Shown here: positions 952 through 61,028 of the stretch, one piece after another | Position numbering within the stretch: position 1 is the stretch's first letter | How the letters are laid out: each line of letters begins with the position of its first letter | Assembly (NCBI GenBank): GCA_031763025.1 | Contig: JASSKH010000022.1 | Location: 12,367,581 to 12,431,580, forward strand | Length of the DNA: 64,000 nucleotides | Direction of reading: 5' to 3' | Origin: Macrocystis pyrifera | Taxonomy: Eukaryota; Sar; Phaeophyceae; Laminariales; Laminariaceae | Notes under the pieces: generated by a model | What the model was told of the DNA's origin: nothing | What the model saw: only the letters and a program-made list of their open reading frames with translations | Databases searched by the model: none | Program-made: the position numbers and the translations under genes

Positions 952-1000
952 TTACGACTACGGCCACGCATGACAATTAGTGCATCCCCTTCCCCCCCTA
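952..1000 (+). repeat. Second terminal fragment of element B
   Basis: The last ~45 bp of element B (ACTACGGCCACGCATGA... followed by a C run) occurs a second time directly behind copy B1. Terminal pieces are thus repeated in tandem. Confidence 0.6.
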
Positions 1001-1076
1001 TTAATAGCTATTTTCTTCGTCTGGGATGCGGACGGGCAGTCGTTCGAGAACTCCCTACGACGCTAACAGTGAGTGG

Positions 1077-1079
<3 letters not shown>

Positions 1080-1112
<33 letters not shown>

Positions 1113-5175: not shown

Positions 5176-5790
5176 CTCCATGCAAAATAGGCGAGCAGCA
5201 CTACAACAACAGTGGGAAAACAAAAACAAAAGCAAGCGAACCTGGTCGTCGATACCGGTAGTCCAACAGCCAGCGTTGGCAACCCATAGTATTCCCTCGA
5301 CATCCATTATTCGGACCAACCAACAATCGTGAGCGCACATAAACTAGTACAGAAATCCGAATCAAAGTACCCCAATATTAATAGCCAGCGTCAAGAAAGC
5401 ACAAGACTGCACCTCAGGCGACAACACTATTTCTATAACAAAAACGCCAACATAAATCAGAAACCCCTACGTAAAATAAGCAAGTTGCATCATCCCCAAG
5501 GTAATCGTTGAACCGTCATAGTGCGTACAGCTAAAACACATTCGATGGGTCGTACATGGTCTTGAGAGAGCTACTATACATACTTCGGGTCATGCCTGCG
5601 TGAGACCAGCAAAAAACTTTACCGCTAGCTGCTGGTGGGACATACACATTAAAGACAAACGTTTCACGGCTTCCACGCATCACGTGCCGAGCGCTGGGAG
5701 AGTGGAACGCGTTGGGTCGAGCGCTTTCGCGCGACGACACTATATTTCTCAGTATTTTTCTCGTCTCATATACATTTTCGTGCCTGCTGG
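5176..5790. other. No recognisable feature
   Basis: Nothing supported here except a TATTAATA word at 5,376. Confidence 0.5.

Positions 5791-6514: not shown

Positions 6515-6563
<49 letters not shown>
6515..6563. repeat. 49-base G homopolymer
   Basis: Uninterrupted G run ~60 bp beyond the stop codon of the EsV-1-7 gene (C run on that gene's strand). Long G/C homopolymers recur throughout this window, often next to element B. Confidence 0.95.
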
Positions 6564-6622: not shown

Positions 6623-8222
6623 TCATGTTTTTCTTGCTTTCTTCTTCTTCGGCTGGCCGTAGTTGTTCTTCACGTCCACCATGTCCGCATCCTTGTGCTC
6701 CTTGCAGAAGACGCCCTTTCCCCCCGCCTTTCCCCACACGGGCTGGCGCCTGCACTCAGGGTTCGCGCAGCGAGGGTGTCGAACGTTGACCATACCCTCC
6801 GCCTTGTGGCTAGCACAGAAAGACGCCCTAGTGGCTCCCCCTTCCCACCCGTACGACGGGATGCGGTCGCACGAAGGGTCCTCGCAGCGCTTACTCACCA
6901 CATTCACCATCCCGGGTTCCTTATGCTTCGCGCAAAAGGCCGCCGGGGACCCGCGCAAGGCGAAGCACGGGGTCAGGCGGCACTCCGGACCCCGGCAGCG
7001 ACTAATGTTCAGGTTCGTCATACCCTCCTCCTTGTGCAAGGAGCAGCTCATCCGCTTGCCTCCCCTGAACCCGAACGACGGGCTGCGGGTGCACCCCTTC
7101 GCGGCCTCACAGACCCGCATCTTCTCCATCCCGGGGAGCCTGTGCGCCGCGCAGTACTTGGAAGCTTTTCCTTTGTCACCCTCGAGCCGGAAAGACGGGA
7201 TCAGCGTGCAGCCTTCCCGCTCGCAGCGGCGAGACGTGATGTCCACCTGCCCGGCGGCCTTGTGCGAGGCGCACCTAGTCGCCCGCGCGTCCCCGATGCA
7301 CCCGAACGAAGGCCGTCGCGAACACCCCCCCTCGAAAGAGCAGGTCCGCATCCTTCCGGCCACGACGTGGCCGGGGCCCGTATCCTCCGAGCAATCGAGC
7401 ACCTTGCTCCCTTTCTTCCTCCTCGAACGGGGGGAGGGCTTTCGTCGGCTCGGCGCGCGCCGGGTCAGGGGGGGGGGGAGCCGTCGGCGGCGGCGCCGGG
7501 AGCAGCTCGGACGCCGAAGCTGCAGCAGCGCCCTGCAATCGCACGTCGCTCTCGGCCCAGTCGTCGGGCGGCGCGATCCCAACGGCTGGGCGAGATACCC
7601 CGACGGCTGGGGGAAACACTCCAACGGCTGGAGGATATACCCCGACGGTTACTTTTTCTGCGACCGGAGGGGCGATTCCCACCGCCGGCGAGGGGAAAAC
7701 AATGCCCAACTCCGCCGGGCGTGCAATCTCGACAGCCGCCTCCGCCGCCGTCATCTCCACTGCCGCAGCCGCCGCCGCCACCGCCGCAGCCGCAACCGCC
7801 TGGGTTGAACGGTCCAAAGTTGCGGCGGCCAAGTAGCTTTGAGGGGCTGGACACTCGCGGGAGAAAAAGAGGCCATCCGACTGGCCGCAGTCGGCCGGCG
7901 ATTCTCCGCCGACACCCTCATGACGGAAAGCCGACGCAGGCGCGGGCGCAGGCGAAAGTGCAGGTGCAGCAGCGGCGCCCGACCCCACCACCACCTGGGG
8001 CGGGTCCAGTAGCGGGGGAGGGAATTGGTAGCCCTGTTCGGGTACGTACTCGCGGGGCGAGTCCGGCTTCACCTCCACTCTAGGCGGCCTGTCGTCTACA
8101 TCTGGCGCCATCCCCGTCGCGATGAAACTGTGCTCACCGCTTGCTGCGCCACTTGTTTCCTCTGCGTCCCGCCGGGATTCGCAAAGACGGTGCGATTCTC
8201 GCTTGATCCGACCAGTCGACAA
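6623..8222 (-). CDS. EsV-1-7 repeat protein (six Cys/His motifs); N-terminal frame uncertain
   Basis: The C-terminal part (about 7,360 down to 6,623) carries six tandem copies of a motif with spacing C-x4/5-C-x15-18-C-x2-H, each followed by a segment like KAEGMVNV. This matches the EsV-1-7 family, which includes IMMEDIATE UPRIGHT of Ectocarpus, a regulator of basal filament development. The four conserved residues probably bind a metal. The protein ends PKKKKARKT, a plausible nuclear-localisation signal. Two overlapping minus-strand frames are open: one (333 codons from 7,624) contains the repeats; the other (from 8,222 to 7,275) is an Ala/Pro-rich disordered sequence with repeats like PPAVGV. 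They overlap at 7,275-7,624, which includes an 11-base C run at 7,469-7,479. A short intron or a homopolymer indel could join them, making 8,222 the true start. Function beyond the family is unknown. Confidence 0.85.
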
Positions 8223-8327
8223 CAGCGTGATAGAGGCAAGGGGGGCAGCAGGGCCACCGCCGTCGCGCTGCTCCGGAGTGGCCAGACCTGCAAAAGAGGT
8301 AGTGTCGAGATGGTGGGGGGGGAAGCG

Positions 8328-8868
8328 TGGGGGGGGGGGGGGGGGGGGTACTCGATAGGAGAGATGTACTCATTATCGTGCATGGCCGTAGTCATATGGC
8401 CACAGACCCGCGCATCCCTACAATGCCGGGACGGAGCATGCTGAATTTTCACCGACCAGGCAGACATAGCTTGCACCAAGCGCGAAGCGCCGTGAGGAGT
8501 CCGGCGAGTTGCATGAAGGGTGGGCTGCATCCTACTAAGCACCGCTCGAGAGACGGATTTGCATATGGATGACAGCTTCAATGAGTTAGTTTAATTTCCG
8601 GTGTAACCACTTCCAGAGACAGCAATGGGAGTACTATGTAACTGCCTCTTGAGTGCCTTACCATAAACACTACCTGGTACGTGATACGATCATTCCCCTT
8701 GTGCGGAATGAAGGTTCTCCACCTCGCACAAACGATCTAAATTCGACGACCAGCTGTAACCAACCGCCAGAAAAAAAACGGTACCCTGGTTGTCTAGCTC
8801 AAGTAGTGAGCGGCATGTTTTACAGTATCGTTGTCAACCGACGCCAACCCAACCTATATAATAGAGGG
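8328..8868 (-). mobile_element. Repeat element B, copy B4 (reference full length)
   Basis: Begins with a G run and GTACTCATTATCGTGCATGG and ends at AACCCAACCTATATAATAG. It lies ~105 bp upstream of the EsV-1-7 start candidate. Inside it, at 8,671, the word TACCTGGTA sits where the copies at 11,990 and 43,980 lack 7 bp. No conserved ORF. Confidence 0.88.
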
Positions 8869-9130: not shown

Positions 9131-9240
9131 GGTGGGGGGGGGGGGAGGGGTTGCGTCACAGCTCCTTCAGGGCGGCACCCACGTTCAAGACAAAACACAA
9201 CTACTCGAAAATAGAGGTAGGTCACTCTTGCAGTGTAATA

Positions 9241-9344
9241 TTACGGGGGACCACAGTTAACAGGACCAAATATTGTTAACAAAAATAGGTAAATATAAAG
9301 GTTTTTATGTGTACCATAGGTCCTACTAACTATGGACCCCCGTA
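9241..9344. mobile_element. MITE family A, copy A1
   Basis: ~105-bp inverted-repeat element with ends TTACGGGGGACC and GACCCCCGTAG, bracketed by TA. Interior is AT-rich (TTGTTAACAAAAATAGG). No coding capacity. Confidence 0.92.
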
Positions 9345-9779
9345 GTAGTAGTAGTAAAAAGTTCAGTAACCTCTGTAGGACAGCACCCCCGTTGCGAGAA
9401 GTAGACTGAGCTATACGTGCTTCTGTGCAGTGCCGTAGCAGAAACAGTTAATTCTTGTTTCGCCCTAATGATTGGCGAGGTGCTTTTGGTACCAGCGGGA
9501 AATATTGGCAGCAGCAGCAGTAGCAGCGTTAACGTAGACTTTATCGGCACACGAAGAAGCGCCGTTCGTCGTCCGTCCGCACAGGGAAACAATGGAGTAA
9601 TATCGAGCAGATGCTAGGGCTGGGCCCTGGTGGCTCCAGTCAGTGCAGCATGCGCTGGCTGCGAAGGAGCGGTGCAAATGCGGGAGCAGGACGATATTAA
9701 GCCACACTTCCTCGGGATAGCAAAGCAACGCGCAGACACGGGGTACACCATCCGTACAACGACATCAGAGGTACAACAA

Positions 9780-10800: not shown

Positions 10801-11146
10801 CATCCATCACGTCCGACCCCTGGGGTACACGGCAGCCGTATTAATATTACCATGTGGTACCAAAAATGACATTTTCCTAGAAAACTTTTACTTTTCTACT
10901 GCGGTCGCGGGTCTTTCCTCCCGCTCTCGGCTGCGGAACGCGCAGGCGGCTCGCATGTACACCACCACGGCGCAAGTGTGGGCCCCGGCCAGGCTCCTGG
11001 GCGCGTGCTCTGGGCCATCAGAATCGCGAAATCTGGTGCTAGAGCCAAGCAGGTCTACGGAAAAAGTTTCTACGGGAACGGGTATAATTTTTGCACCAAA
11101 CCCTCCGAGTTCTGCTGTACCTCGCACCATACACGTAGCACAACTA

Positions 11147-11255
11147 TTACGGGGGACCACCGTTAATAGGACCTACGGTACACACAAAAAAACCTACATA
11201 TTTCATTTTTTTACCAACAATAGTTGGTGCTATTTACTATGCCCCCCCCCCGTAA
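11147..11255. mobile_element. MITE family A, copy A2
   Basis: Ends TTACGGGGGACC and CCCCCGTAA with perfect flanking TA on both sides (11,145-11,146 and 11,256-11,257). Confidence 0.95.
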
Positions 11256-11682: not shown

Positions 11683-12155
11683 CGGGGCGTACTCATTATT
11701 ATGCATGGCCGTAGTCGTGTGACCATGAACCCTCGCATCTCTACTACACTGCCGGGACGGAGCACGTCGGGTTTTCACCGACCAGGCAGACATTGCTCGC
11801 ACCAAGCGCCAAGCGGCGTGAGGTGTTGGGCGAGTCGCATGAAGGGTGAGCTGCATCCTACGAAGAAGCGCTTTAAAGGCGGATTTTCTTGCATATGGAT
11901 GACAGCGTCAACTGAACCAACGTCTGGTGCGGTCAGTTCCAGTGACAGCAATGGGTTTACTATGTAACTGCCTCGTGGGTGCCTTACCAAATACACACCC
12001 TGTGATACGATCAGCCCTCTCGTGCGGAGATAAGGTTCTCCCGGCACAAAAATTGATAACCGCAAAAAAAAAAACGGTACCCTCGCTGTCTAGCTCACGC
12101 AGTGAAAGGCGTCTTTTACAGCGTCGTCGCCAACCGACGCCAACCCAACCTATAT
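11683..12155 (-). mobile_element. Repeat element B, copy B6
   Basis: Near-full copy beginning at a G-rich run and GTACTCATTATTATGCATGG and ending at AACCCAACCTATATATATA. At ~11,985-12,000 it lacks the 7-bp CTGGTAC seen in B4. Confidence 0.87.
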
Positions 12156-12563
12156 ATATATACCAAGTATATAATATTGTTATTGCCCTCGATGAACTGC
12201 GTTCGAGCGCTGTTCTCAGTTTGCTTGTCTTTCTTTTTGTGAAGTCAGTCGCAGTTGGAGCTGGTGAGAGTGACGAGAGAGACCACTCGTCACCGGCACA
12301 GATGGCACCCCAGCAGGCGGGGTTTGGCTCAGGCTGAGCGTTTGCGTGCTGGCTATCGGTACTACTCGTGGTCGTACAGGGCGGGGATATGGGACATTCG
12401 TCGTGGTTCTTGAAGAGCATTCAGCATCCTACAGTACGTACATTCCTGCTTCGTGTTGTTGGTAGTGATGCACCAGACTCTTCTACAGCCTACTACTACT
12501 AGAGGAGTGGGAATGACGAATGTGAACAGATCTACGGCAGTGGTCAAGCTCCAAACTGCACTA

Positions 12564-12674
12564 TTACGGGGGACCATAGTTAATAGGACCTACGGTATAC
12601 ACAAAAACCTATATATTTACCTATTTTTACTATTAATAACAATATGTGGTCCTATTTACTATGGTCCCCCGTAA
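12564..12674. mobile_element. MITE family A, copy A3
   Basis: Well-preserved copy; TTACGGGGGACC...GGTCCCCCGTAA flanked by TA on both sides. Confidence 0.95.
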
Positions 12675-12679
12675 TAAGC

Positions 12680-13125
12680 TATTGCGTTGGCGGTTGTTGT
12701 ATCGTTATGGATGTGTTGCTGTCGTTCTCAGTCTCGTCATGCAGTACCAACGACAGATGTCCCGCCAGCTCGACCGGAACAGGCGACAGAGGTGCTGCCA
12801 GCCGGCAGAGACTCCGGGCACACAACAAACCAGGGATGACCCTGGGGACACAGGAACATCACTTCGGATTCCTATTAATATGTAGTGCTACCAGCCGCAG
12901 CGCATCACATCGGCACGAGCACCCGCACCAGTACTACAGCAATGGGATCGAATTCATGGAGATAATCGGTTTTGCAGTGCTAAATACATCACTTACTAAG
13001 CGATGCGCGTCAAAGCGCAGAAACCTTGTACAACTACTACAACTTCCTGTCGCTCGTCTCTGTCTAGTAGAAGGCATGGACACCTGGACGTCCTGGATGT
13101 TCACGGGTGGAAAGAGCAGTTTAGT
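12680..13125. other. No supported gene
   Basis: No repeat copy or splice-consistent exon recognised; one TATTAATA at 12,873. Confidence 0.45.
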
Positions 13126-13256: not shown

Positions 13257-13914
13257 GGTCGAATTAACCCATCTGCTTACAACAGTTGCTATTACCAACA
13301 GTTGCTCGGTATCTGTCTTTTGCTTCGTTCTCATCTTAGTCGTGCCGTCCTATTTTAAGTACGTACTGCTGGGGAGACCATTTCGCAAAACTCTGACTTT
13401 TTCTCAGTACAAAGCTTGTTACAATCACCATCCTCTTCAACGATGTGGCCATCGGAACCTCTGCCCTGTCGTGCTGCTGTGAACTTAGAGCAATTCATTA
13501 TAGTCTATTGGCTAAAAAAAAAAACGCCCACCGATCCCTCTCGAATGACGTTACTATTAATATGTACCCCTAGCACTGCTGACCACTCTGAACATCAAAG
13601 TAAGAACCGTCTTGATCTCGATAATAGTACCCCCCCACGGTCTGTATCTTCTGGCCGGCCAAAGTCCATTAGTATTTTCTATAATACAGTAGTAGCCCAA
13701 TTTCTGGCCGGTCAGAGTATAATAGCATTTCGCATGGATCATATGATGTGGTCGAGTATCAGTGGGTTACCCGATTTTAGAGCCCCTCGTGCGTACTACA
13801 GCCTACATAGCAGGTGGAAAGCGCTCACGAGATGGCTCCTACCCCGGCGCGCTCTGCAGTCAGAGAGACGAGGCGCTGCCATCGCTCGTCGCGCGCTCGC
13901 TCCTGCTCTAAGGG

Positions 13915-14049: not shown

Positions 14050-14395
14050 AATAGCATGGTATCATGCCGCGATATAGATAGGAATTACAGTAGAATGATG
14101 GTGCCACCATTTATATGGGAAATAATCTGGTACTTGGTCTAGTGTTGTGTATAGTCATTTAGGATATTGCCGCGATATATCTAGGAATTACTATGGTGCC
14201 AATGTTTACATAGGAACTATTAATAGAGTAGTGCATGGTATTAATAGTGTGTTTTTTATAGGAATATGAGTATATAGGGATTAGTTTGGCGCCTCCGTTT
14301 ATATACGAATTATGGTACAGTAGTTAAGTGTGTTTGGCATAGGTAATGGTATGGTATATGGTACGGCGGTTTATATACGAGTCAGTATGGCGTTT
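14050..14395 (+). repeat. Diverged tandem repeat (~4 units)
   Basis: Units sharing CGCGATATA-ATAGGAATTA, TGGTGCC and TTTATATA-GAA recur about every 90-110 bp. Two TATTAATA words lie inside (14,218 and 14,239). Confidence 0.6.
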
Positions 14396-20524: not shown

Positions 20525-20950
20525 GATCACTTTTACTTTGAACTCATATCTGTTTCGGGGAACCATAGTTAAAAGGACCTACGTATGGTATACATAAAAA
20601 CTATATATTTACCCATTTTTACGAGAAATATTTGATCCTATTTACTATGGTCCTCCGTAATGGGAGTTTTTTTACTCTCAACGATCTTCTGGACAAGCCG
20701 TGGTCGCAAGTGTCGTCCCTTCTCCCCCCCGGTACGAGCCTTTATTTTTACCGCGCATAAGGTTCAGCATTCCCACCGCTCGTCGATTTTTATCGAATGT
20801 AGCTAACTCACGCTCTTGCGTTTTCCGCTAATATATTTTTTTATGCAAGCAAAAGTCCCTACTGTACGAGCATGCACTCGGTGAGACTCGAACCCACGAA
20901 ATTGATCTTGACAGGCACGCGGACCACCTATCAAGCCACCAGGAACGCCG
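20525..20950 (-). mobile_element. tRNA-derived SINE, copy S6 (interrupted by MITE A4)
   Basis: The SINE tail side (ATCACTTTTACTTT...AACTCA) lies at 20,525-20,547 and the remainder at 20,664-20,950. The gap is filled by MITE copy A4, so the MITE inserted after the SINE. At 20,861 the copy carries an extra CTGTA (CCCTACTGTACGAGC versus CCCTACGAGC in other copies). Confidence 0.85.
20552..20663. mobile_element. MITE family A, copy A4 (nested in SINE S6)
   Basis: Diverged copy; left end TTTCGGGGAACC, right end GGTCCTCCGTAA. Interior TACGTATGGTATACATAAAAA matches the family. Confidence 0.88.
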
Positions 20951-33472: not shown

Positions 33473-33784
33473 AGTAGTATTAATAGGAGAGTGTTATTAG
33501 TATTAGTAATAATATTTAATAGTGCTGTAATTTCGCGCAGAATGTAGTTGATACTATTCAATATACTATAACGAAGTATACTATGTTTAGCACCAAGAGT
33601 TGTTTAGCCTTAATGACGTCTTCTGTGCGTCCTGCGATCTGTGATTGATTGTTGTGCTACTGTATGTACTGCTGTACTACGGGAACGATATCCTTTTCTC
33701 TCTCAAGAAGACCCGTCATGGGAGACCGGATATTTCGCAGTGCGGGCACCCTGGACAATAGGCAATGACCCCTGCAATAGCAAT

Positions 33785-35585: not shown

Positions 35586-35859
35586 CGCACACAAGTTGAT
35601 GACAGTTCCCAATACCTTGGTGCCCGAGTTTCTATTAATAGCGACATCTATATATAATGTCTTCTTCAAATGAGTGTGAGAGCGTATGGTCTCCGCAACA
35701 TGATGACGTCGGTTCACATTATTACCACATACATACAGAACATGACGTTCCTGATACCTGGTACGTATTTGGCAACTTGTTGTGTTTCAAAAGATAAAAT
35801 CTCATCCCCATCGGAAGGTTATTCTCAATTAGGAAAATCGGGTACGCGATTGTGTACAA

Positions 35860-36425
35860 CAGCAGTAATCATCGCCATCCACAATAGATTATTGGACGCG
35901 CTTCCAAAATAGAGTATTGCCTCGCGTATATCGTGGGATGAGAGCAAAATATCCTCGAGATGGCTATATATAGATGGATAGCTTGTACAATATATTATGG
36001 CCGGCAATGGCCATCGATAGACACATCGTACAATCTATTGTGGTCGGCAAGGGCCATCGATAGACATATCGCACAATCTATTGTGGCCGTCAATGACCGT
36101 CGATAGACCTCTCGCACAATCTATTGTGGTCGGCAATGGCCGTCGATAGACCTCTCGCATAATCTATTGTGACCACCAACGGCTATCGATAGGCATTTCA
36201 CACAATCTATCGTGGCCGGCAATGGCCATCGATCGACATCTCGCACATTCTACTGTGACCTGCAATGACCATCGACAGACGAAGTTCACCATCTATTGTG
36301 TTCGGCAATGTCTATCGATCGACAATATCACCAGTCTATTGTCACCGACAATATCTATCGATAGATACCTTCTACAATCTATTGTCGCAGACAACATACA
36401 TCGATAGATCCCCCCTTCTCGTCTA
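35860..36425. repeat. 43-bp ATCGAT satellite, block 3 (best preserved)
   Basis: About ten units. Three consecutive ones from 36,011 are each exactly 43 bp (CCATCGATAGACA...CAATCTATTGTGG). The unit combines a palindrome (ATCGAT core) with CTATTGT/ACAATAG. Confidence 0.92.
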
Positions 36426-47100: not shown

Positions 47101-50100
47101 ATTCATACAAAAAAAAACACAAAACACAAAACGTAGCCGAAAACCGATCGCACCTTCTCCTCGGAGGCGATCAACGCCCTCGCCGACACGTCGCGCTCCA
47201 CCTCCCCGGAGGTGGCATCCACGGCCTTCGCGCTTTCCAACGCAAAAGCGCAAAGCTCGGGGAGCTTGCTCCAGCTGTTCTGGATGGCCGCCGTAGCGGC
47301 GATCATGAAGTCGCGAAGCACCTCGCGCCTGCTGGCTTCCAAAAGCTTCATCTGTAAATATCACGCCGTAAGGAAAGAGCGGCCAGGGGGAGGGGGGTGG
47401 AGGGGTGGGGGTGGGGTAGGGGGATGAAGGTGGTGGGGGTAGGGGAAGGGAGGGGGGGGGTCGGGCGGGGGGGGGGGGGGGTGTACTCGACATCATGCAT
47501 GGCCGTAGTCGTATGACCAAAGACCCTCGCATCCCTACAGTGCCGGGACGGAGCACGTCGGGACGGAGCACGTCGGGTAGTCACCGACCAGGCAGACATT
47601 GCTTGCACCAAGCGCAAAGCGCCCTGAGGTGTCCGGCGAGTCGCACGACGGGGGGGGGTAACATCCGCCTCCCTTCGCCCACCGCTCGAATCCCTCCAGA
47701 AATATGTTTTCCCGACAAGACAGCTACCCGTCACCGGACGAGATACAACCGCGCGCTTAACCCCATCCCACCTCGTTTGAATGCTAGTCCCAGCGAAGTT
47801 ACCGCTACCACTCCATACTCCCCTTCCCCCTCCTCGCTCTCCCGCCCCATGCTACCGTCTCCACTCCGTACCCTTCCCCCCCCCCACCCTCCCCACCCGA
47901 TTGACTGATACCACTCCAACCCCCCCCAAGAAGGCCTCAAACATCCCATTACTGTCACACCTGCACCCCCCCCCCCCTCCTTTCATGAACGCCTCTCCCA
48001 CTCCATTTAGGTTTCCATTCCGTGACCCCCCCCCCCCCCATATGCATCACAATGGGAACAGCTCCCCCTCCTCCTCCCCCTTCTCGCCCCCCCATTCCAT
48101 AACTACTTCCCCTCTTCATGAATGCCTCTGCCACCCAATTTCCCCTCACCATGCCGTCACCCCTTCCCCCTCCTAACATTTTCGACGGTGTCATCCATAA
48201 GCAACAAACCCCACCTCACAAGCGGTTCCTAGTAGGATGCAGCCAGCTTGCCCGTCATGCGGCTCGCCGAGCACCTCACGGTTCGCGTCGCGCTTGGTGC
48301 AGGCAAGCAATGGTTGCCTGAGCGGTGAAAACCCGACGTGCTCCGTCCCAGCATTGTAGGGACGCGAGGGTCTATGGTTATACGACTACGCTCATGCACG
48401 ACAACTATTACAGGAGACCATAGTAAATAGGACCTACGGTACACACAAAAACCTACCTGGTATATATTTACCTCTTCTTACTAACAATATTTGGTGCTAT
48501 TTACTCTAGGTCCCCCTTAATAGTGCAACCCCTTCCCCGGGTACGAAACGCCTCCCTGTATCACCTTGCCCAAAACCTCCTTCATCTTGTTCGACACAGC
48601 GTCCCAGGCCTCCTTTTGGTGAACCACCGCAGTACGGTAGCTGCAATCCAGGAACCAAATGTCCTCGCTCTGATTAACCCCTCCGAGCTGAATGCCAAGG
48701 ACCTGGCGGGGGGTGGGATAGGCAAAAGGTGGGGAGGGGGCGAAAAACAAAAACAAGACAAAAATAAAAAACATAGAGACGCAGAGGAGAGGAGGCAGAC
48801 AGCAGACGGGAGGCGTCAAACAAAAACATGCCAATAAAAAAATGAGAACAACACCAAATAGCAACGAGATATTAAGTGGGACACAGGGGAGACGAGAGGC
48901 AAGAGGCAAAGGAATTCCTAAGAAAGAAGCAGACACACGAACGGCACTGGCCATTAATTTCATTTTCTTTGACCCAACGATGGAGGGAGAAAATACTGAA
49001 GCATAAGCTCACCAGCACGAGTTATGCACAAAAAACGGGGATTGGCCGTCCCAGGGAACGTTTTACGTCCTCCCCCCCCCCCCCAATGCTTCTCGCGCTA
49101 TTTTAATGCCTGTCACTCACCTGTTTTACCACACAACGGGGTCTTTAGAAAAGTTCCCACGGGGTCTTTAGAAAAGTTCCCAAATGAGTTGTTGTCCAAA
49201 AGTTGCTTTTTTAGTTGCAGACTGATACCACGTATAAAGTATGTGCCTGTGTAGATTTTACTCGTTACTGCCTAGGCAGCAGCAGCAGCACTAGCAGCGC
49301 AACCGTATTACCAGAGTGTGTAAACGACCTGGATCAGCCCAAACTCCTCCGATTATTACGTAAACCCTTACGCACTGCAACGTTTTTTTTAGCGCGATGT
49401 CGGCGGGTTTGTACTTTCAGAAGACGGCAACATACCGGGCAAGGTGCGCACAACCGCGCATCGCCACCACCACCAGCAACAATACCACCACCACCACCAC
49501 CACCATCACCACCACCAACAACAATATCAACCACCACCACCACCACCACCATACATACCTCTTTATGCACTGCCTTGGGATCGTTTGTTATTCTGCCAAG
49601 CAGTGTGCTCTATGTCCAATTTTGGGCGAGGTACAGATCCACTCGCCCGAGTGGCGTAGGCCCGGGTAGTCAAAATAATGGCAGCATACCCCCCCTACAG
49701 CAGCAGGAGTCGCGGCTGATTTCACCGCTGACGGTACGGCCCACCATCACCAAAGCAGCCACCAACATCACCACTATCACCCACGCCACCACCGCCACAA
49801 TCATCACTGAATACCTGCTAAATACCACCGCCACCACTACAACAGTCGATTCATCCAGCCCATCAGCAGTGCATCCACCAGCAGCGCAGGCAACGCCATC
49901 ACCGACACCATCACCGACACCACCCACAACAACACCAACACCGCCACAATAGCCACCTCGAACTCAACCACCACCACCGGGAGAAACAGCAGCAGCATCG
50001 CCACCGACACCGCCACCAGCACGTTTACAGCCACCAAGAACAACCACCACCGCTCCCAACACCAACACCAACACCACCACAGCCACCACCATCAACATCA

Positions 50101-51950: not shown

Positions 51951-54145
51951 AATTAGGGTGGGGGTGATGGGGGCGAAGGTCGGGTTGAGGGGGGGGGGAG
52001 GGGGGGGCGCGCGGACCCACCGAAGCTTGGCGGTGCCCTTTTTGTCGCCGAAGACCTTGTCGGCGTTGGCGTAGACGGACGACGAGTAGACGCGATCTGT
52101 TTCCAGCCTTCCCGCGATGTACAGCAGCACCTGTGCGTGCGAAAGGTGAGGGTGCAATCGGAAAAAATACGGGGGTATAAAAACGGGGAATAAAAAACGG
52201 GAATTGAAAAAACTCAAAGAAAAGAGAAAAAAAAAAAGAAAAATGCACGGACATATATGAACGATCGAAAAGTGCGAATGAATATGTGCAGTCGGCGGGG
52301 TATTGCAAGCACAGTGCAGAACAGCACACAACAGCACCGCGTAGCACAGCACCCAACAACCCAAGTCCAAGCACGAGCACAAACACCAGCACGTCCACAA
52401 ACGAAACAAGTTCATCACCTGCTGAGTAGATCCGTCGTTGTCCGTCATAAGGTCGCAAAGGCTGGACCAGTAGATAGACGTCTTGCTGTACTCACTGGCG
52501 AAATAACTTTTTCGTTGAGGGAGGCGGGAGGTGGAAGGGGAGGCGGGGGGGGGTGGAGGAGGGAGGGGACAGCGGAATCGCGGCAGGGAGGGGTCGAAAT
52601 TGGATACACAGCAATAGTACCATACCCCCGAAATGTTCGTGTTCGAGTGGGATGAGTGGTACCGTACCGTGCGGTACCACGAGCGATTATTATCAGCTGG
52701 TTATTCCCACTCTGTCCGGAACGCAAGGACCATTTAGTCACTATTATGGATATTCAAGTGTCCTTACATTTCCGATGAGAGTGGTTCGTACCAGCAGCAG
52801 AGTGAAGCAGCGAAAAAAAAACCCATGAAAAACGACCGATCAGGTATCCTTCAAGAGGTCGCACCCGACGACCCGCGACCAGTACAACGCGCGGCCGAAT
52901 CATCACACGCAGACCCGAAAAAGTGACCTTTCAACAAACTTATCGATCGGGTACGGGCACGAATAGCTGAGGTGTTGACCGGTTTTGTCGTTTTACGCAA
53001 AAACAATACTAACGCAAGAACACAAGTGAAACGACACGAAGCAAAGCCGGGCGACGCAAAGCTCATTGTTGTACATATTGGTCATATGATACCCCCGAAA
53101 CGCCTACTTATCTGATGGTGCCACTTTAGTCTATGCGCTGGGTGATGAGAGATGATGACCATTTCGCGGGACCATAGCAAACAGGACCTACCGTATACAC
53201 AGAAGCGTGTATGTTTCCCTATTTGCACCAACAACATTTGGTCCTATTTACTATGGTCCCCCGTAACAGTCAAACCGCGGTCTCCTCGTAGCATAGTAGT
53301 CTGTCATGCGTCAAGGCCTCTTTAGCCCCCACTATTCACGTACTCAGCATTACGGGGGACCACAGTAAATAGCACCTGCGGCACACACAAAAAACCTAAT
53401 GTTTCCCGATTTTTACTAACAAAATTTGGTCCCATTTACTATGGTCCCCCGTCATAGATAGTCAGGCAGGCGTCAAACCGCGGTCATCCACAAATATGTA
53501 GCGTCTTGGTTTTGTCATCGTATTTTGCTCGAAGTTTGTACCGCAAGTAGCCTCTTGAAGCTTTGAAGCGCAGAGGACAAACATCCGCCTGGTCGTGTTA
53601 CAGCCACAGAACACCAAGCGAGCAAAGAAACAGTAGTAGCACTGGTCCAGGCTGGGTTTCACATCTTTGAGGACTCGTGTGCATTCTACACAAACTTTCA
53701 GTATGCCGACTCCCTGTAGTACAGTAGTTTCTTATTTTCCTGTGAATATCAGCCTGACTCTCTCCGTGCATGTTTTCTTACTGTAGTACAGCAGTGTAAA
53801 TAACTTTCGGTGTGCCCACTCCCTATATAGCCGGCGTCCCCGGTGGCTTGGTAGGTGGTCCGCGTGCCTGTCAAGATCAATTTCGTGGGTTCCAAGTCTC
53901 ACCGAGTGCATGCTCATAGGGACTTTTTCTTGCAGAAAAAAATGATTAGCGGAAAGCGCGAGAGCGTGAGTTAGCTACATTCGATGAAAATCGACGAGCA
54001 GTGGGAATGCTGAACCCTATGCGCGACAAAAAATGAAGGCACGTACCGGGGGGGAGAAGGGACGACACCTGTGACCACGGCTTGTCCAGAAGATCGTCGA
54101 GGGTAAAACCTCCTACGAGTGGGCTGGAAAGTAGAAGTGATGACG

Positions 54146-54184
<39 letters not shown>

Positions 54185-57100
54185 ATTTTCCTGTGCTCAT
54201 CAGCCTGACTTTTTTCGTGCGTGTTTTCTTACTGTTTGTAGTACAGCAGTGTAAATAATATATCGCTCTGGTCGGAAAAATAATCCCGGTTTGATGATCA
54301 ATCACATCAAAGTTATAACGGGTATTGTATACCGGGCCAAAGGGGTATATATAGATGGTATGTTTCTTGTTCAACACCGCTGTAGTTGAAGAACTTGGTA
54401 CCGGTATGGTATACTCCTACAGCAGCAGTGGTGTACCGGTACCCATTAAGACCATCCGGTAGGAGGCCCTGAGTAGAGAGGATCCTAGGTAAATCGGCTG
54501 GTCTCGAGAAAAAACTACTTGGAACTAGTGTGGGATCATTTTTTCAGCATCGTAGTGAAACATGATACCTGGTACAGTACGAGTACCATATCAGAGATAA
54601 CGCCACCTAAATTGCCCTTCACGAGGTGGTCTTCAAGTGGGTATACCACTGCGGTGTGCGTATTGGTGGATTGGTGGTCGTTATCGCCGATAATCCAGAG
54701 AAGTCTTGCGGTCGAAGCGCGCAAGAAAGAAGGAATGAAGTACTGCTGTAATATACCAGGTGCCGTCTAACCCGAAAACATGTGCGATGTTGTGCGATGT
54801 CATACGAAGTATTCAGTAGGTAGTAGTAAATAAGACTTACGGTACACACAAACAAATATACATTAAATTTATACTGATAATATTTGGTCCTATTTACTAC
54901 GGCCCCCTGTAACAGCGCGTCCCTTTGAACGGATTTCTCGTGTTATTATCTCGACAACGGAGAGAACGCCGAACGATGCATCTATGGATGGAAAAGTCTC
55001 GGCGAGATCTTTCCTCATGTTTTGGAGAAAAATATCTTGGAAATTCGTCCCAGTTGGTTTGTTGTCTTGTATTAATACAACTCTGTCCCAGAATGCAAGG
55101 AGCAGTTATACTGATTATTAACCTATAAACGGTACCTATATTTTGGGACAGAGTGGTCTATCGTAGGAACGAACACCCTCAATACTGCTGATCACGGAAG
55201 GAAGTTTCATGCTCAACGGAACATCGTGTCGACAAACATCGTGTAATCACCATTATATTACGAGCGAAGGCCTGATACTTCCTACTATATTATGAGTGAG
55301 TCGCTCGCTGTTGCTGTTTGTTGGATGTGGCATCAACGCAGTGTGTTGCCTTGACTGACCGCCCCGCAGAACAAAACTACGGCAGTACTACTGTAATGAA
55401 GTATATACCAAGGAAATAAGGAGGTCGTGACGCGACCTACACGAGCGGTCTCCTTAACACCATGTCTACGCGCTTGCTTGAAGACCTCAATGAAGTTAGA
55501 CTCGGACTTGGAAAATTCTTGCAGTAGTATCAAAGCGGGCCGAACAATATCCGAAAACTGAAAATGTACTCGAGACACGACTACTACTGCTGTAGGTAGG
55601 TAACGAACCTGTTTGTTCCATTCTCAAAAACAATGTGTATGCTACTGATACTGCTGTGTTCCGTGTTGCTGTTCTCACATTAACTCGCCGCCATAATCTA
55701 GTCCATGGTCAGGCCAATTATTATGCAGTCGGAATTCCAGTCAGTTGAAAAAAGGTCCATTCAGCACGTTTGCGCATGTCTCCAGCCCCGGAAATGGGGG
55801 AATTTGGCCTTTCTCTTGTCAGAATAGGTTTTCGCCAAGGTCTTACATCCGAAGATAATATACTGTACCAGATATATAGAGTACGTACCTGCTACAGCAG
55901 TAGAACATTTTCTCATTTCTCCACGGTTGCAGTTTCAGGAATGCTGCTGCTGTTCAATACAACTCTATCCCGTAATATAGTGGCCGTTTATAATTATTAT
56001 CAATACACTAAAGTTCCTTACTTTTCGGAACAGAGTGGTACCAGGTATGGCACGCTTGTGTCTGTCTCCCAGCGGTCTGTACGAGTATATAGGACACTCA
56101 CCTGAGTACAAACAACCACGGGTACCTGCCAGGTATTTACAGCGGTCAGCACGATATGCTACACAGCACATATCCATACTGCCTTTGAACATGGCCAAAA
56201 GAACGGGACGGGACGGGACAGGACAGGACGGGCAATCAACAATCAAGACCTCAAAAACTGAAAACCAAAAAAGGTCTAGACTCGTACTGACAAACAAGCA
56301 AACAACACCACACCCAGTCGTAGTAGCATGGCATTCGAATCGCACCACTTTTAATGCATTACGGTGTGTTATCTCTGTGTCGTAGTCTGTGACCACAGAG
56401 CTCGTATCTTTCTAGGGTGAAGAATCAGCACGGACACTGGGCTTGCCGGATGTCGACGAGTAGAAGAACGGTTTAATGTGAAGAACACACACACACACTT
56501 TCCTACAGCAGCAGCATTATTGAGGGCAAGGCCGTTTTTCGCCGTCGGCTAAAACGTCTCTGCATGGCAAAGGTTATTTACTGGCTTCCACTGCGTATGT
56601 ATACAGGGTTAAGGGTACGAGTAGGACACTGAGTTGAGCTTGCCTGTCCTGTATAGGACTGCAGTCACGTCTTGGGGACAAACTACTTAGAGTTTGAACG
56701 GTTTGTCCCGAAAACGGGACTGTGGTTCTAAAGGAGTCGAGCTGCATCGTTAATTGCGAGGGCTGTACCATAACCGATTTCGACCCGGACCCGGCGTCTT
56801 CAGAACCGGACGAGCTTGCGCTCCTAACGCGTTGAACTAACGGAATTTTCGGGGCATGCCGCCTCGAGTTGCCTGGTGGCCGTAGTGCAGAGTATTCGGG
56901 GGCCTTGCTGATTGCAGTGTGTTGGGAATGCGGATTTCCTTTGGTTCTATTTTTCTTAATTCGATCGTACACAGCATACTGCGCCACCTACAGTAGTAGT
57001 GCACGACAGCTACTAAAACGAGCAATAAGAAAGGCAAGCCATTATTGACAGGAATATAAGAAATTCGGGGGTCGTTATCTGGAATCTGTGTATATGCGTT

Positions 57101-58944
57101 GGCCATTCTCCAATCCAGTCTGGACCAACTTTCTTGTTCAATATCTGTATATGAGAGGCTGAACGACGTAGGGCGTACACCTCACAGCTCACCTGCAGCA
57201 GGGAGGTGTCCTGTACTTGGAAACACGAAAATTACAAAAAGAAAAACAAAAAACATGGAAAAAAAAAAAAGGAATATGCACCAGAAGAATGCGTACCACG
57301 GCGGTACCAGGTACATCTTACCTCACGTGACTTGACTTACAGCAGCAGTGGCACCAGAACACCATCACGCCACGCCGACGGCGGCTGGGCGTGTGGGTTG
57401 CATTTTTTTTTCTTTTCTTTGCCTTTTTCATCCCCTTTGGAGATCTGGGTGAAAAAAGCTGTCCCCCAATACACTTTCTTACCGTATTCGTGTACCGGTT
57501 CCAGTCCATGTGTACACGTTCAAGATGTACATACACCCCTCCCCCCGTGTAAGTGGAAATAATAACAACAACAAATAAAAGGCTTTGCATTTGCCTGGTA
57601 TCATACCGCACACGGTACGACTACGCTGTATACGTTCCAGGGTATGCCGTAATACAAACCAGCCCTATTACGCAGCTTGCAAAGTTGAGTATCAACTATT
57701 TAATCAGTCGATCTCACAGCTGACGTATTCCAAAATTTATAAAACCAGCCCGTCGACACCACACGAAGAGGCAACGACGCGACTCACCTACAGCAGTACC
57801 TCTCGAGCTCTCAAGGTGCGATGTCGAAAAAAAGATCAACATGGTCATGGTTGAATTGAATGACATGAAGGAAAGTTGAAAATTGGACGAGACAGCTGAC
57901 TTTTATTTTATTTTTTCGTCACCTTTGATCAACTTGCATAATTTCCAGCTTGACCCTTTTAGGACTGCCGTTCCGTTTCGGGTACAAACTACTTGGAATT
58001 AGAGTGCTTTGTCCCCAAAACGGGACTGCAGTCGTAAAGTCCTCGTAGGAGGTGTTACGTACGCTCAGCGAAGTTCTGGATAAGCAGATACAGCAGTAGT
58101 GGTGGTCGCAGGTGACGTCCCTTCTCCGCTCCCCCGTACGTGCCTTCATTTATTTCACCGGGTATATTTTTATCGCGCATAGGGTTCGGTATTGCTCGTC
58201 GATTTCATCGAATGTTGATGTTGCTGACTCACGGTCTCGCGACTTCCGCTATTATTAAATAATATAAACACCCTTGTACGTACTCATTTCGCTCAGGTGC
58301 CGAATAATTATATATTTTCCGGATTCGGGGAGAGCTATTAATATTAATACTAGACTTTGCGGACTCGGAACAGCAACAACATTGGGGCGATTGGTGTGTG
58401 CGCCTAGATATGTGCGAGGCAAGCAAGCACACGAGTCGGTCACCAGGTGTTCTGACATTCTGACAAGCCAACCCTATCCCCCTATCGAGACCTTGCTCAT
58501 GCCCTGATGTCCCTTCCTCCGCTACCACTAATATTAATAGAGAGCTCGAAGGGTCGGGTTGCATCTGAAAACATCAACCTCCCCGCCCGTGCGAGCTCAT
58601 TTTTTGTGCATACAACAATTCGTGATACGCGCAGCTAGGAAGAAAGAAATATGCCGAAGTACTCGACGTGGATACTATTATTAAATAGTGGATACCTTGT
58701 TTGCTGCCCGCGAACGTATAATAAAATACCAGGTGCGTATATGGAGTAGGTCCGAAAAGACATGAACAATAACATGGTACAAAAGTCGGAAAAGTCGGAA
58801 GGCAACAGGAAGCGTGCACTTTGTCTCCAGGTCGGCTGCGTGGCTGCGCTTGACCACTAAGGGAATAGCTCACCCAGATCTCTTGCTCTCGAACACCACG
58901 AGCTCGGCCATGTCGGCCCGCGGAGGAGGCGGAGACAAGTCCAT
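39846..58944 (-). CDS. F-BAR and PH-like domain protein, 14 exons, 607 residues
   Basis: Exons in transcript order: 58,874-58,944; 52,419-52,494; 52,021-52,130; 50,916-51,138; 50,137-50,256; 48,565-48,702; 47,154-47,351; 46,300-46,398; 45,355-45,443; 44,390-44,507; 42,096-42,224; 41,638-41,814; 40,681-40,752; 39,846-40,049 (stop TAA). Phase agrees at all 13 junctions. Residues ~30-310 are helical and charged; LLYIAGRLETDRVYSSSVY matches the FCH/F-BAR helix, followed by AMWEMAEMDCRAARYRD and THKRFKELSDEG helices. Residues ~365-510 look PH-like, from SKYHAGLMVLSWDGFIHFF to TVTFRNTTEAEMHEALSII. A Ser-rich link and an Ala/Pro tail (to VPVAKAV) follow. F-BAR proteins dimerise, bind and curve membrane, and link it to actin during endocytosis or cytokinesis; the PH part may add lipid binding. 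The fifth exon uses a GC donor (GAG/GCAAGT). The first exon fits by phase but sits 6.4 kb away, and the last acceptor (AAAG/GTG) is inferred. Confidence 0.87.
40101..40123. repeat. 23-base G homopolymer in the last intron
   Basis: On the gene's strand this is a C run that lengthens the polypyrimidine tract before the proposed last acceptor at 40,050. Length change here could affect splicing or frame. Confidence 0.85.
40835..40875. repeat. (GTG)n microsatellite
   Basis: GGTGGTGGTGTTGGTGG run in an intron of the F-BAR gene. Confidence 0.9.
41095..41288. repeat. (CAT)n microsatellite
   Basis: ~190 bp of ATC/CAT units in an intron of the F-BAR gene; reads as poly-Ser, poly-Asp or poly-Met in different frames. 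Confidence 0.95.
41428..41533. mobile_element. MITE family A, copy A5
   Basis: Diverged copy, intronic. The left arm reads CATACTGTAGTATATCAGGAC where the family has CATAGTAAATAGGAC, a 5-bp insertion (CTGTA) at a TA. Confidence 0.85.
43697..43770 (+). repeat. Element B terminal fragment, copy B9
   Basis: C run, then GTCATATGACTACGGCCATGCACG and GAGTACACCCCC, directly abutting full copy B10. Confidence 0.8.
43771..44316 (+). mobile_element. Repeat element B, copy B10 (full length)
   Basis: From TATATAGGTTGGGTTGGCG to the C run at 44,306-44,318. It retains the state without the 7-bp CTGGTAC at ~43,976. It lies in the F-BAR gene intron and ends ~75 bp from exon 44,390-44,507. Confidence 0.9.
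44698..44772 (-). pseudogene. Duplicated fragment of the PH-domain exon
   Basis: Reads LMVLAWDGFTRFFDVPAST then a stop within nine codons, matching LMVLSWDGFIHFFDVPAST of the exon at 44,390-44,507 only ~190 bp away. The acceptor CAG before the duplicate reads GGCCAG/GCTGATGG, similar to the real one. A decayed partial exon duplication in the preceding intron. Confidence 0.85.
45098..45152. repeat. Decayed relative of the 16,024 hairpin
   Basis: AAATCCGATAGCCCTAAGTCGTC and, after TCTTGGGGGC, AAAATCCGACGACT: arms of the 16,024 foldback with mismatches and an indel. Confidence 0.6.
45885..45989. mobile_element. MITE family A, copy A6
   Basis: TTACGGGGGGCC...GGCCCTCCGTAA with TA on the left; the right-hand TA is the first dinucleotide of TATTAATA (45,990-45,997). 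Intronic. Confidence 0.94.
47456..47650 (-). repeat. Element B, copy B11 (truncated)
   Basis: G run plus the first ~190 bp of the element. It carries an internal 15-bp duplication (GACGGAGCACGTCGG twice) and ends at another G run, ~105 bp from exon 47,154-47,351. Confidence 0.82.
48184..48404 (+). repeat. Element B, copy B12 (truncated)
   Basis: GACGGTGTCATCCATAAGCAA to CATGCACGACAA; MITE A7 begins where the last bases of B would be expected. Confidence 0.8.
48408..48520. mobile_element. MITE family A, copy A7
   Basis: TTACAGGAGACC...CCCCCTTAA between TA dinucleotides. Contains TACCTGGTA at 48,454 in place of the family's TA (AAAACCTATATATTTACC in other copies). Only ~45 bp downstream of exon 48,565-48,702. 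Confidence 0.93.
49465..50110. repeat. (ACC)n-rich simple repeats
   Basis: Clusters of ACC/CAC/CAT triplets separated by less regular sequence, filling the intron between F-BAR exons at 48,702 and 50,137. Confidence 0.85.
51780..52015. repeat. G-rich low-complexity tract
   Basis: GGTGGGG-type sequence next to the 5' splice site of F-BAR exon 52,021-52,130. Similar purine-only tracts occur at 50,280-50,460 and 51,150-51,210. Confidence 0.75.
53163..53266. mobile_element. MITE family A, copy A8
   Basis: TTCGCGGGACC...GGTCCCCCGTAA; the interior AAGCGTGTATG is diverged. Confidence 0.88.
53350..53454. mobile_element. MITE family A, copy A9
   Basis: TTACGGGGGACC...GGTCCCCCGTCA, 83 bp from A8. 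Confidence 0.9.
53693..54262 (+). repeat. Tandem repeat E interrupted by SINE S7
   Basis: A ~115-bp unit (ACTTTC-GTATGCC-ACTCCC, TTTCTTATTTTCCTGTG, TTTTCTTACTG, ACAGCAGTGTAAATAA) occurs at 53,693-53,808 and again from 53,809, where SINE S7 splits it at 53,830; it resumes at 54,178. Confidence 0.85.
53831..54177 (+). mobile_element. tRNA-derived SINE, copy S7 (full length)
   Basis: Complete head (A-box-like TGGCTTGGTAGG, B-box-like GGTTCCAAGTCTC with one extra C), body and ~33-base poly(A). Very close to S2 and S3, so a recent insertion, into the first intron of the F-BAR gene in opposite orientation. Confidence 0.95.
54819..54912. mobile_element. MITE family A, copy A10 (left end lost)
   Basis: Starts at AGTAGTAAATAAGAC and ends GGCCCCCTGTAA; the terminal ~12 bp of the left arm are missing. 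Confidence 0.85.
56350..56494 (+). repeat. Dispersed repeat C, copy C3
   Basis: Nearly identical to C2 at 33,334-33,472 over its whole length; a short CA run extends the end. Confidence 0.9.
56650..56740. mobile_element. Short foldback element G, copy G1
   Basis: ~85-bp inverted-repeat element with arms TAGGACTGCAGTC and GACTGTGGTTCTA around GGGGACAAACTACTTAGAGTT. Matches 57,958-58,043. Confidence 0.8.
57935..58255 (-). mobile_element. tRNA-derived SINE, copy S8 (old, interrupted by G2)
   Basis: Body words TTCTGGATAAGC, GACGTCCCTTCTCC, GTACGTGCCTTCATT and CGCGCATAGGGTTC lie in family order, with several small insertions including TACAGCAGTA (58,089). The head is lost. Confidence 0.82.
57958..58043. 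mobile_element. Short foldback element G, copy G2 (nested in SINE S8)
   Basis: Arms CTTTTAGGACTGCCG and GGGACTGCAGTCGTAAAG around GGGTACAAACTACTTGGAATT; inserted in the tail side of S8. Confidence 0.82.
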
Positions 58945-59512
58945 GATCCCTCTTGTTGGTTTGTTGAGGTTTTGAAAGTATCCAATTAGTCGATCGCGGT
59001 TGACAGAATTCCTCTGGTGAGCCTTGTTTCCGCTAGTCTGAAGAGTCGGTGCCAAGGTCCTTCTGTTCCCCTTGAGTTCCTTCTTTTCAGCCCGGCGAGT
59101 GAGTGGGTGTGGGGGAGTGCACGCGGTGAGTTTTCGGCCTGCAGCAGATTGTAGAATAAAAGGCGCTCGCTCTTCGAAAACCCAAAATCTGACTGCAAAA
59201 AAGAAAAGCGCCTTGTATTACTTCGAAGGCTGTTTCATCGGAAGAACCTTTGGCGGGAGCCCGGGGATTGCTTTCGGCTTTTGAACCCACCCAACCATGC
59301 ATCTTCGTGCACCCGCTCCTGTGAAACGCACAACAACCGCTGGAGGTTCTCTGTCCCGTGCTGTGCCCCAGTCAGCCACAGAGCACAGATATCGCAGGGG
59401 GATAGGACCGGCTGCCTTCACGGAACCCCCTCCCACCCCCCCCCTTCTTCCCTCACCTAGACCGTCCCGGGCTGGCGCTGGACGTGTCGGACGCGGGAGA
59501 ATCAGCATAGCC
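58945..59512. promoter_or_regulatory. Likely bidirectional promoter region
   Basis: Lies between the start codon of the minus-strand F-BAR gene (58,944) and the plus-strand signal-peptide gene (59,513), head to head 568 bp apart. No TATA box I would defend, and the 5' UTR limits are unknown. The inference rests only on the divergent arrangement. Confidence 0.45.
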
Positions 59513-61028
59513 ATGGGGTCGGGAAGGGTCGCCGTGGGGAGGAGGTTCATCCCTCTCGTCTGGGTTGCTGCGTTCAGTGCCCTTGCCATCCTAGACTCGG
59601 CAGGCAGGGCCATGGCTCAGCCTCAAATGGACAGCGCAATGGTGAGATCCACGACGATTTTTGAAGGCTGCAGAAATGGAGGAAAGGGAGAGCCTTGTGA
59701 CTGGGGGTTAGCTCCGCTTTGTGTGCTCGGTGTGTTGCGATTTATCCCGTCCTCTTGCGTGTGAAGTGCGGAGGGAAGCAGCTCTTTCTTTGCAGCCTGT
59801 TTTACTTTCGTATAGTGGACTGACTGGCACCTGGTAAAACAAACAAACAACCGTTGTTATACATGTGATACGAAGTACGTTCGTTCGTGGTCTCCCAGCT
59901 CCCAGGCTCGCAGGTTGGCTTTCCCGTTGAAAGCTGTGTGAGCCCGAACGCCGGCCGCACCCCCCTCGTGTATCCATCCACTTATTTATCCGTCAGCTCT
60001 CATCAGACGTGAAGACGTCGTTCCATGCAACGTCACAAAGGTCACAAACGTACCTTCGTGTGAACACAACACGAGAGACGGACCTACCTGGTACTTCCAC
60101 ATATATTAGCTACACGAATATAATCCTGGAAAAAAACGGACTCGCTGATGGGTGTTGAGAGACTCACCCTATCTGTCGCTTTCGGGAGGTGTGCTCTCGT
60201 GCCGTCAATTTGTGACCCCCCCCCTCCCTGTTTCTGGTTGTCTAACGCTACGATTATTATATACCCTCGGTCTGCTACGTGATCAAGTATTCACCAGTTA
60301 TGATACATCATCAGTCAGTGCGTACCGTCGGCTACCCCGAATGTTTCAGGTGTACAAAGTTTTGGTATGTACGTACTGCTGCTGTTCCGTTACATACTGC
60401 TGTGCTGCTCACATCTCATGCATGATACGATAGAAGTTTAAATTATGGATTCAAAGGAAGCCTCCTGCCACAGCAAGCAGGGGCTCACCCAGGGCTGTTT
60501 AGCAGTGACCCCCGCGCTGGCCTGGTCGGCGCGGCAGAGCGCAGGCAAAGTAATTATTCTACAGCAGCTATTAATAGTACTACTACTGGTGTCGAATGTG
60601 CTATATCGTACCAGGAATACCTCCAAGCCGAAGCCGTCACGTTCTAGACACTTTACTACTTGGTAGTAATATGGTTGAGCGTTACTGTTGCTGACTGACT
60701 GCTGTACTTAAAATAGTATATAAATAGTTGTCGCTACTCTCGGAACTCATGCAGCAGGATAGTTGTACAGCTGTCGCCGACTTGTGTGCGTTGGATGGGT
60801 GGGGGCGGGAGTACTTGGTGTTGTCCCATCGCCATTGTAGACTGTCGTGCTGTTGTCGTTCGATCGTAAGACAGCAGACATCCGGATCAGGCTCCCTCCG
60901 CCTTACGTACTGATGTCGTCTACGTCGAGTGGTGCCACACAGCTGGAGACGAACTCGCGTGGAAGAAACTAAATCAGGAACAGCATGGATGAATCAGCGT
61001 GAATTGCAAAAAAAAAAACAAAAAACAA

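Follow-up and report, generated by a model that had tools for sequence, protein, structure and literature searches.

An over-represented palindrome in a kelp genome as the probable commonest excision footprint of a TA-inserting MITE family

Introduction

Why should one palindromic word of eight bases, TATTAATA, recur at scattered positions of a kelp chromosome? The question is raised by a stretch of 64,000 nucleotides from Macrocystis pyrifera (hereafter the window), in which the initial annotation had listed 20 such positions, had put the enrichment at about 20-fold and had proposed that the word is the scar left behind when a short element, MITE A, is cut out from between its duplicated TA target dinucleotides. 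Here we surveyed the word, the element and several related words in the window and in the whole assembly. As judged from sequence comparison, TATTAATA is very probably the footprint most often left by the excision of MITE A, a non-autonomous element of 105 bp which inserts at TA and duplicates it.

Materials and methods

Whole-assembly searches covered 537,376,219 bases in 223 contigs. A sample of 20 stretches of 10 kb each was taken from the same chromosome (200 kb, GC content 50.38%), and the window, these 20 stretches and four further loci (L055-L058), which were chosen for holding TATTAATA, together form the 275-kb set. Excision was read from paralogous copies inside one assembly, in place of other strains. 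The reversed word, ATAATTAT, served for comparison with the count of TATTAATA.

Distribution of the word and features of the window

All of the 20 positions given earlier carry the exact word and three more were found (754, 12631 and 55070), which brings the window to 23 copies (Table 1). Dinucleotide-shuffled versions of the window hold 0.76 copies on average (sd 0.88, maximum 3 in 100 shuffles), so that the measured enrichment in the window is about 30-fold; under an order-2 Markov model 0.35 copies would be expected, and TATTAATA has the highest count of any palindromic 8-mer in the window. The 20 stretches of the same chromosome hold 28 copies against 1.1 expected, with 4 of the reversed word. 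Genome-wide, where a count near expectation would have spoken against the annotation, TATTAATA occurs 94,130 times and the reversed word ATAATTAT 7,522 times.

The window also contains an open frame on the minus strand at 6623-7624, in which the cysteine-rich EsV-1-7 motif (PF19114, E 4.3e-64) occurs six times; this motif family is typical of brown algae, and the frame fits a brown algal host. Pfam searches on 10 long open reading frames of the window gave nothing but EsV-1-7 at E up to 0.1, and tRNA and Rfam scans were empty. A minisatellite of 43-bp units, to which ATCGATAGA is common, lies at 35944-36409 with related units at 33931-34244, and long poly-G/poly-C runs are present at 6515-6563 and elsewhere, the longest having 49 G.

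Table 1. Positions of MITE A copies, TATTAATA sites and other scar-like words in the window
Feature	Position	Strand	Remark
MITE A with flanking TAs	9239-9347	+	
MITE A	11145-11254	-	
MITE A holding the 12631 scar	12562-12676	-	
MITE A	20553-20661	-	
MITE A, diverged	41426-41532	+	
MITE A	45883-45991	+	
MITE A holding a TACCTGGTA scar	48406-48522	-	
MITE A	53161-53266	-	
MITE A	53349-53456	-	
MITE A, partial	54823-54912	-	
MITE A	61079-61184	+	
MITE A	62993-63099	-	
MITE A	63542-63650	-	
TATTAATA in dispersed repeat	754-761	.	bare TA in 5 of 6 listed paralogs; sixth unaligned there
TATTAATA, C..G flanks	999-1006	.	exact match
TATTAATA	5376-5383	.	exact match
TATTAATA	10839-10846	.	exact match
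TATTAATA within MITE A copy	12631-12638	.	same TA elsewhere bare or filled by nested MITE A
TATTAATA	12873-12880	.	exact match
TATTAATA	13555-13562	.	exact match
TATTAATA, C..G flanks	14218-14225	.	exact match
TATTAATA, starting 21 bases past the start of the 14218 site	14239-14246	.	exact match
TATTAATA	24523-24530	.	exact match
TATTAATA in unit 1 of 175-bp tandem duplication	29035-29042	.	TT at this spot in unit 2
TATTAATA	33478-33485	.	exact match
TATTAATA	34490-34497	.	L051 paralog: TATTGATA (shared, mutated)
TATTAATA, C..G flanks	35633-35640	.	L051 paralog: TGTTAATA (shared, mutated)
TATTAATA, C..G flanks	37644-37651	.	exact match
TATTAATA	42559-42566	.	exact match
TATTAATA adjoining MITE A; first TA is right target duplication of the MITE	45990-45997	.	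exact match
TATTAATA, C..G flanks	46815-46822	.	exact match
TATTAATA	55070-55077	.	exact match
TATTAATATTAATA, two overlapping TATTAATA, serial scar	58336-58349	.	exact match
TATTAATA	58532-58539	.	exact match
TATTAATA, C..G flanks	60569-60576	.	exact match
TACCTGGTA, second scar-like class	8671-8679	.	paralogs without the 7 bases
TACCTGGTA within MITE A	48454-48462	.	other MITE A copies without the 7 bases
TACTGTA, third scar-like class	20860-20866	.	paralogs without the 5 bases
TACTGTA, third scar-like class, within diverged MITE A	41441-41447	.	
TA-CCWGG-TA, sites 1-10	8671, 16290, 17553, 17563, 20495, 21875, 22882, 24909, 30907, 31160		
TA-CCWGG-TA, sites 11-19	35755, 41296, 44850, 46915, 48454, 54566, 56039, 57305, 60085		
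TACAGCAGTA/TACTGCTGTA	3536, 18595, 33667, 46277, 54741, 55585, 55893, 57789, 58089, 61235		

Structure, copy number and class of MITE A

The element has the ends and the length first described for it, TA-TTACGGGG...CCCCGTAA-TA around 105 bp, and its inverted ends reach 27 bp in the best copies. The 275-kb set contains 36 copies (13 in the window, 21 in the 20 stretches and 2 in L055-L058), of which 27 are full-length; among these 27, 15 measure exactly 105 bp, 15 have TA on both sides, and divergence from the consensus is 11.5% on average with a range of 2.9-21.2%. Genome-wide, 17,014 copies have kept both ends exactly (TATTACGGGG...CCCCGTAATA), which is a lower bound on MITE A since decayed MITEs are left out. 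The earlier proposal that scars outnumber surviving copies is borne out by the counts in the window (23 against 13), in the 20 stretches (28 against 21) and, with decayed MITEs left out of the count, genome-wide (94,130 against 17,014 both-ends-exact copies).

A copy nested within another at L052, compared with the bare TA of other copies, shows that MITE A duplicates its TA target. Its inverted ends, short non-coding body and high copy number are those of a Tc1/mariner-type MITE, and its footprints, with terminal bases between two TAs and with TATTAATA and 2-3-base variants at one and the same TA, are likewise of the Tc1/mariner type. In a search for further TA elements by their inverted ends, no short family other than MITE A recurred clearly between TAs. 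The Tc1-type DDE_3 profile (PF13358) had no match in the assembly, and it matched 3 of 14 control genomes. Two other classes were considered and rejected. PIF/Harbinger MITEs make a 3-bp TWA target duplication, and comparison of the filled and bare site shows a 2-bp duplication of TA, not a 3-bp one; piggyBac-type elements use a TTAA target and excise precisely, and here a bare site consists of TA and not of TTAA, and excision leaves some bases in place.

Some further occurrences of the element were noted. At G000:C128:1591869-1592042, three matches to TTTTTAC plus the MITE A left end follow one another at a spacing of 74 bp and may be a tandem array derived from MITE A. A 16-base core of the MITE was found in 26 prokaryote loci, and real MITE A copies in two of them, which belong to Phycisphaera and Oligoflexales MAG records: L018 (JALZVY010000069.1, bases 1-2000) and L012 (JALZUO010000060.1, bases 1-111). 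Near base 2000 the GC content of L018 rises from 48-52% to 66%, as might be expected of a chimeric contig or of contamination by algal DNA, and the copies in both loci are most likely algal sequence within bacterial MAG records; the L018 and L012 assemblies show no enrichment of TATTAATA (3 against 4 and 39 against 39 of the reversed word). Four IMG/VR matches to the 16-base core were discarded as chance, none being below E 1e-3 against the MITE A model and a second scan being empty.

Differences between repeat copies

Where a sequence is present in several copies, the gain or loss of the word can be read directly. At 754 the word stands where five of the six listed paralogs have a bare TA, and in a larger set 16 subject places support the insertion. 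Within the MITE A copy around 12631 the word is present, and other copies lack exactly those six bases and have the TA bare. In the tandem duplication at 28,917-29,253 unit 2 lacks the word, as the annotation had noted, and the units differ by six bases there; what unit 2 has at the spot is TT, not TA, since unit 1 reads GTGTGT-TATTAATA-GTGTTC and unit 2 GTGTGT-TT-GTGTTC. The fourth case, L037:3129, has TATTAATA against TG in the partner copy, and thus two of the four paralog cases (754 and 12631) have TA at the spot, one (29035) has TT and one (L037:3129) has TG.

Across the set as a whole, repeat copies differ from one another by 509 insertions of 3-20 bases, of which 53 can be written as TA-x-TA; 20 of these 53, with lengths of 12-17 bases, resemble units internal to a repeat or artefacts of alignment rather than scars. 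A search with the joined flanks reached another place for 10 of 55 scar queries. The L051 partners of the sites at 34490 and 35633, and likewise L056 and L057, which have one scar in common, are scars inherited by duplication and are neutral to the excision reading. Alignments at 42559, L044:50 and L052:8675 are too poor to judge.

The repeat which holds the 754 site is dispersed, several hundred bp long and present in both orientations (8313-8629, 44018-44334, 463-929, 11684-12050 and others). In its L038 copy a MITE A occupies a TA that lies 3 bp away from the position corresponding to the 754 scar.

One TA in three states

The body of MITE A itself contains a TA, in the context TTTTTAC-TA-ACAATATTTGG (hereafter the test TA), which is found in three states: bare in other copies, occupied by TATTAATA in the copy at 12562-12676, and filled by a complete nested MITE A at L052. 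The strict bare-site pattern is matched by 15 of the 36 sample copies, and the other 21, which fail it, are unsorted. Genome-wide, the test TA is found as two TAs separated by at most 30 additional bases at 288 places, and the reversed pattern at 0.

The spectrum of these extra bases was grouped by hand for the first 100 of the 288 places, taken in contig order and hence not a random draw. These comprise 36 cases of TATTAATA, 5 of TATTATA, 3 of TATAATA, 5 of TATTTAATA, 3 of TATTAAATA and 1 of TATTATAATA, the last five words being the products expected from 2-3 retained bases of TTA...TAA, together with 8 serial scars containing TATTAATA. With the serial scars counted, 61 of these first 100 fit the retention of 2-3 terminal bases of TTA...TAA; 10 belong to a CAG/CTG class, 4 are longer duplications of MITE sequence, and 25 fall outside the terminal-base rule, the CAG class and long internal duplication.

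All 12 scar loci that were fetched fit the MITE A model around the scar. Among eight candidates for the filled state, four (L075, L080, L081 and L082) are MITE A nested at the test TA with halves of the host copy on both sides, and the other four are MITE A in unrelated DNA. A count of left junctions, 697, was rejected as a measure of nested MITEs, as, among four loci behind it, L059-L061 are copies of a single nested arrangement, L062 is not nested and only those four of the eight further candidates are.

Target-site signature

Insertions of MITE A have a preference beyond the TA itself, with C at -1 in 67%, A at -2 in 63% and T at -3 in 50% of 54 half-sites. The corresponding values are 55, 50 and 56% for the flanks of TATTAATA (108 half-sites), against 20, 28 and 29% for any TA. 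In 49 sites (the 55 sites less 4 near-duplicates, one from each pair, and less 2 in or adjoining MITE A) the combination AC-TA accounts for 29% of 96 half-sites; its share among all TA is 5.9%, and 10,000 random draws never gave more than 15.6%. When four-position flank models were scored on TATTAATA against background, MITE A gave +72 bits, CCWGG -56 and CWG +51; the CWG-class model thus also beats the background, and the fit of the flanks does not point to MITE A alone. The scars strongly bear the TAC-TA signature of MITE A insertions, unlike TA generally, and the CWG class has part of it. The shorter words TATTATA and TATAATA, taken over the whole set, have C at -1 in only 19% of 98 half-sites, and most of them in the whole set are therefore not scars of the MITE A family.

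The proposal of the initial annotation that TATTAATA is the excision scar of MITE A is thus supported from three sides, by the differences between paralogs, by the TA in three states and by the matching target flanks.

Proposed mechanism

The end products are what is observed; the cutting and pairing steps set out here are drawn from the known chemistry of Tc1/mariner elements. A Tc1/mariner-type transposase supplied by a relative would cut the non-transferred strand two, less often three, bases inside the ends of the MITE. The TT overhangs of the two flanks would then be filled and joined to give TA-TT-AA-TA, both TT being kept because TT overhangs are unable to pair with each other. With a three-base TTA overhang the outer bases could pair and a single copy would be left, as TATTATA or TATAATA, and mixed cuts of two and three bases would give the five-base fillers of TATTTAATA and TATTAAATA. 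Excision repeated over time would have produced tens of thousands of scars.

Alternative explanations

The main donor of TATTAATA may instead be another family, or a larger autonomous element, with TTA...TAA ends and a TA target, MITE A being one of several donors, and we regard this as unlikely. A scar records just the first 2-3 bases of its donor, 94,130 scars are far more than 17,014 both-ends-exact copies, and the DDE_3 profile search found no autonomous element, all of which would suit a second source. Yet among 704 continuations after TATTA the most frequent one, bar a TTA run (TTATTA, 96), is CGGGGG, the start of MITE A (29), and MITE A fits the target signature and occupies the very TA that is scarred.

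That the word is a functional palindrome, maintained by selection for protein binding or regulation, for example, is very improbable: it would account for a perfect palindrome being very common, but not for its exact six-base presence or absence between repeat copies, for its position inside MITEs, for its adjoining other TA-x-TA units or for one-TA variants which keep 2 or 3 bases of the MITE end. We give very little credence to the idea that TATTAATA is a preferred target of MITE A and not a product of its excision, for which the copy adjoining the word at 45,990 could be cited, since MITE A flanks favour TAC-TA, not TTAA, and a preference cannot explain how the word arose in repeat copies when related copies have a bare TA. 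A composition effect of AT-rich or microsatellite DNA is practically negligible as an explanation, because although TATATATA and ATATATAT, the A/T palindromes nearest to TATTAATA in count, are frequent too (17 each in the window), the remaining 13 of the 16 palindromic A/T 8-mers occur 0-5 times each there, TATTAATA tends to have a C before it and a G after it and not A/T neighbours, and the reversed word is 12 times rarer genome-wide.

Other scar-like words

Further words of the form TA-x-TA are in excess. The window holds 19 copies of TA-CCWGG-TA where 0.61 would be expected, and the 200-kb sample has 49 where the expectation is 1.74; TA-CAGCAG-TA (TACAGCAGTA/TACTGCTGTA) occurs 10 times in the window against 0.2 (about 49-fold) and 22 times in the sample against 0.58 (38-fold); and TA-CAG-TA occurs 29 times in the window against 10.4. 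Insertions seen between paralogs back the CCWGG class at 3 sites, CAG/CTG at 3 and CGAG/CTCG at 2. At 54,566 three different TA-x-TA units stand in a row, TACCTGG-TACAG-TACGAG-TA (TACCTGGTACAGTACGAGTA), like serial excision scars.

The CCWGG, CWG and CAGCAG words look like scars of other TA-inserting families. In the 275-kb set, TATTA continues as CGGGGG 29 times; in contrast, after TACCAGG, TACCTGG or TACAGCAG no common continuation was found in that set but TA (and CAG repeats), and so no abundant donor of the CCWGG or CAGCAG class is visible there. None of these other classes yielded a filled state, which makes the scar reading weaker for them than for TATTAATA.

We tentatively consider, as a possibility somewhat short of even, that several TA-inserting families left scars which outnumber and partly outlive the elements, that donors of the CCWGG and CAGCAG classes are rare or gone, and that one pairing rule governs all of these words. 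Under such a rule, overhangs able to pair with themselves around A/T mismatches would keep just one copy, in one orientation or the other (CAG or CTG, CCAGG or CCTGG, CAGCAG or CTGCTG), and ends which do not pair, such as TT, would leave both. The 275-kb set holds CAGCAG 20 times and CTGCTG 12 times, with the mixed CAGCTG and CTGCAG once each, and this rarity of mixed forms is as expected if a mismatched joint passes on one whole strand. If the rule were true, some of these elements would have their non-transferred strand cut at a depth of 5 or 6 bases, beyond the 2-4 bp of footprints reported for Tc1/mariner.

Significance and comparison with known systems

Cut-and-paste transposons mostly erase their own history, and here the scar word and its sister words keep a readable record of excision. 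Through them the excision of MITE families can be counted genome-wide, with information on the frequency of departure, the repair of breaks and the depth of cutting, and the idea of scars as pointers to families now gone becomes testable. For kelp genomics, small TA insertions may be a source of markers. The case also advises caution, as an over-represented palindrome is not necessarily a regulatory motif.

In another brown alga, Ectocarpus, 17 Mariner-Tc1 families with almost 12,000 copies, mostly non-autonomous, are described in the main text of the transposon paper on that genus (PMC12477816), in which the words footprint and excision do not appear. MITEs of this kind (e.g. TcMar-N1_Ec32) are, like MITE A, brown algal and mostly non-autonomous, a likeness drawn from their description in that text. 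Among the papers listed by full-text searches of one open library, none was listed as describing a genome-wide excess of a footprint word in a brown alga.

For Stowaway MITEs of Triticeae and for Osmar5 in yeast, passages of PMC1925063 describe terminal-repeat footprints of 1-4 bp inside the TA duplication, and for Stowaway repeated loss and gain at one TA. Those passages concern one intron compared across species, whereas the kelp presents one dominant footprint word and a MITE-internal TA with hundreds of insertions.

Excision of Tc1 leaves TACATGTA, and that of Sleeping Beauty leaves TACAGTA or TACTGTA. In the Tc1/mariner superfamily footprints have 2-4 bp and those of ZB zero to three, according to the passages on footprints in PMC7913693. 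With Tc1, Sleeping Beauty and ZB the kelp system shares the TA target and the short terminal remnants between two TAs; it differs from them in having a MITE as donor and in offering tens of thousands of footprint sites that can be read from the genome itself.
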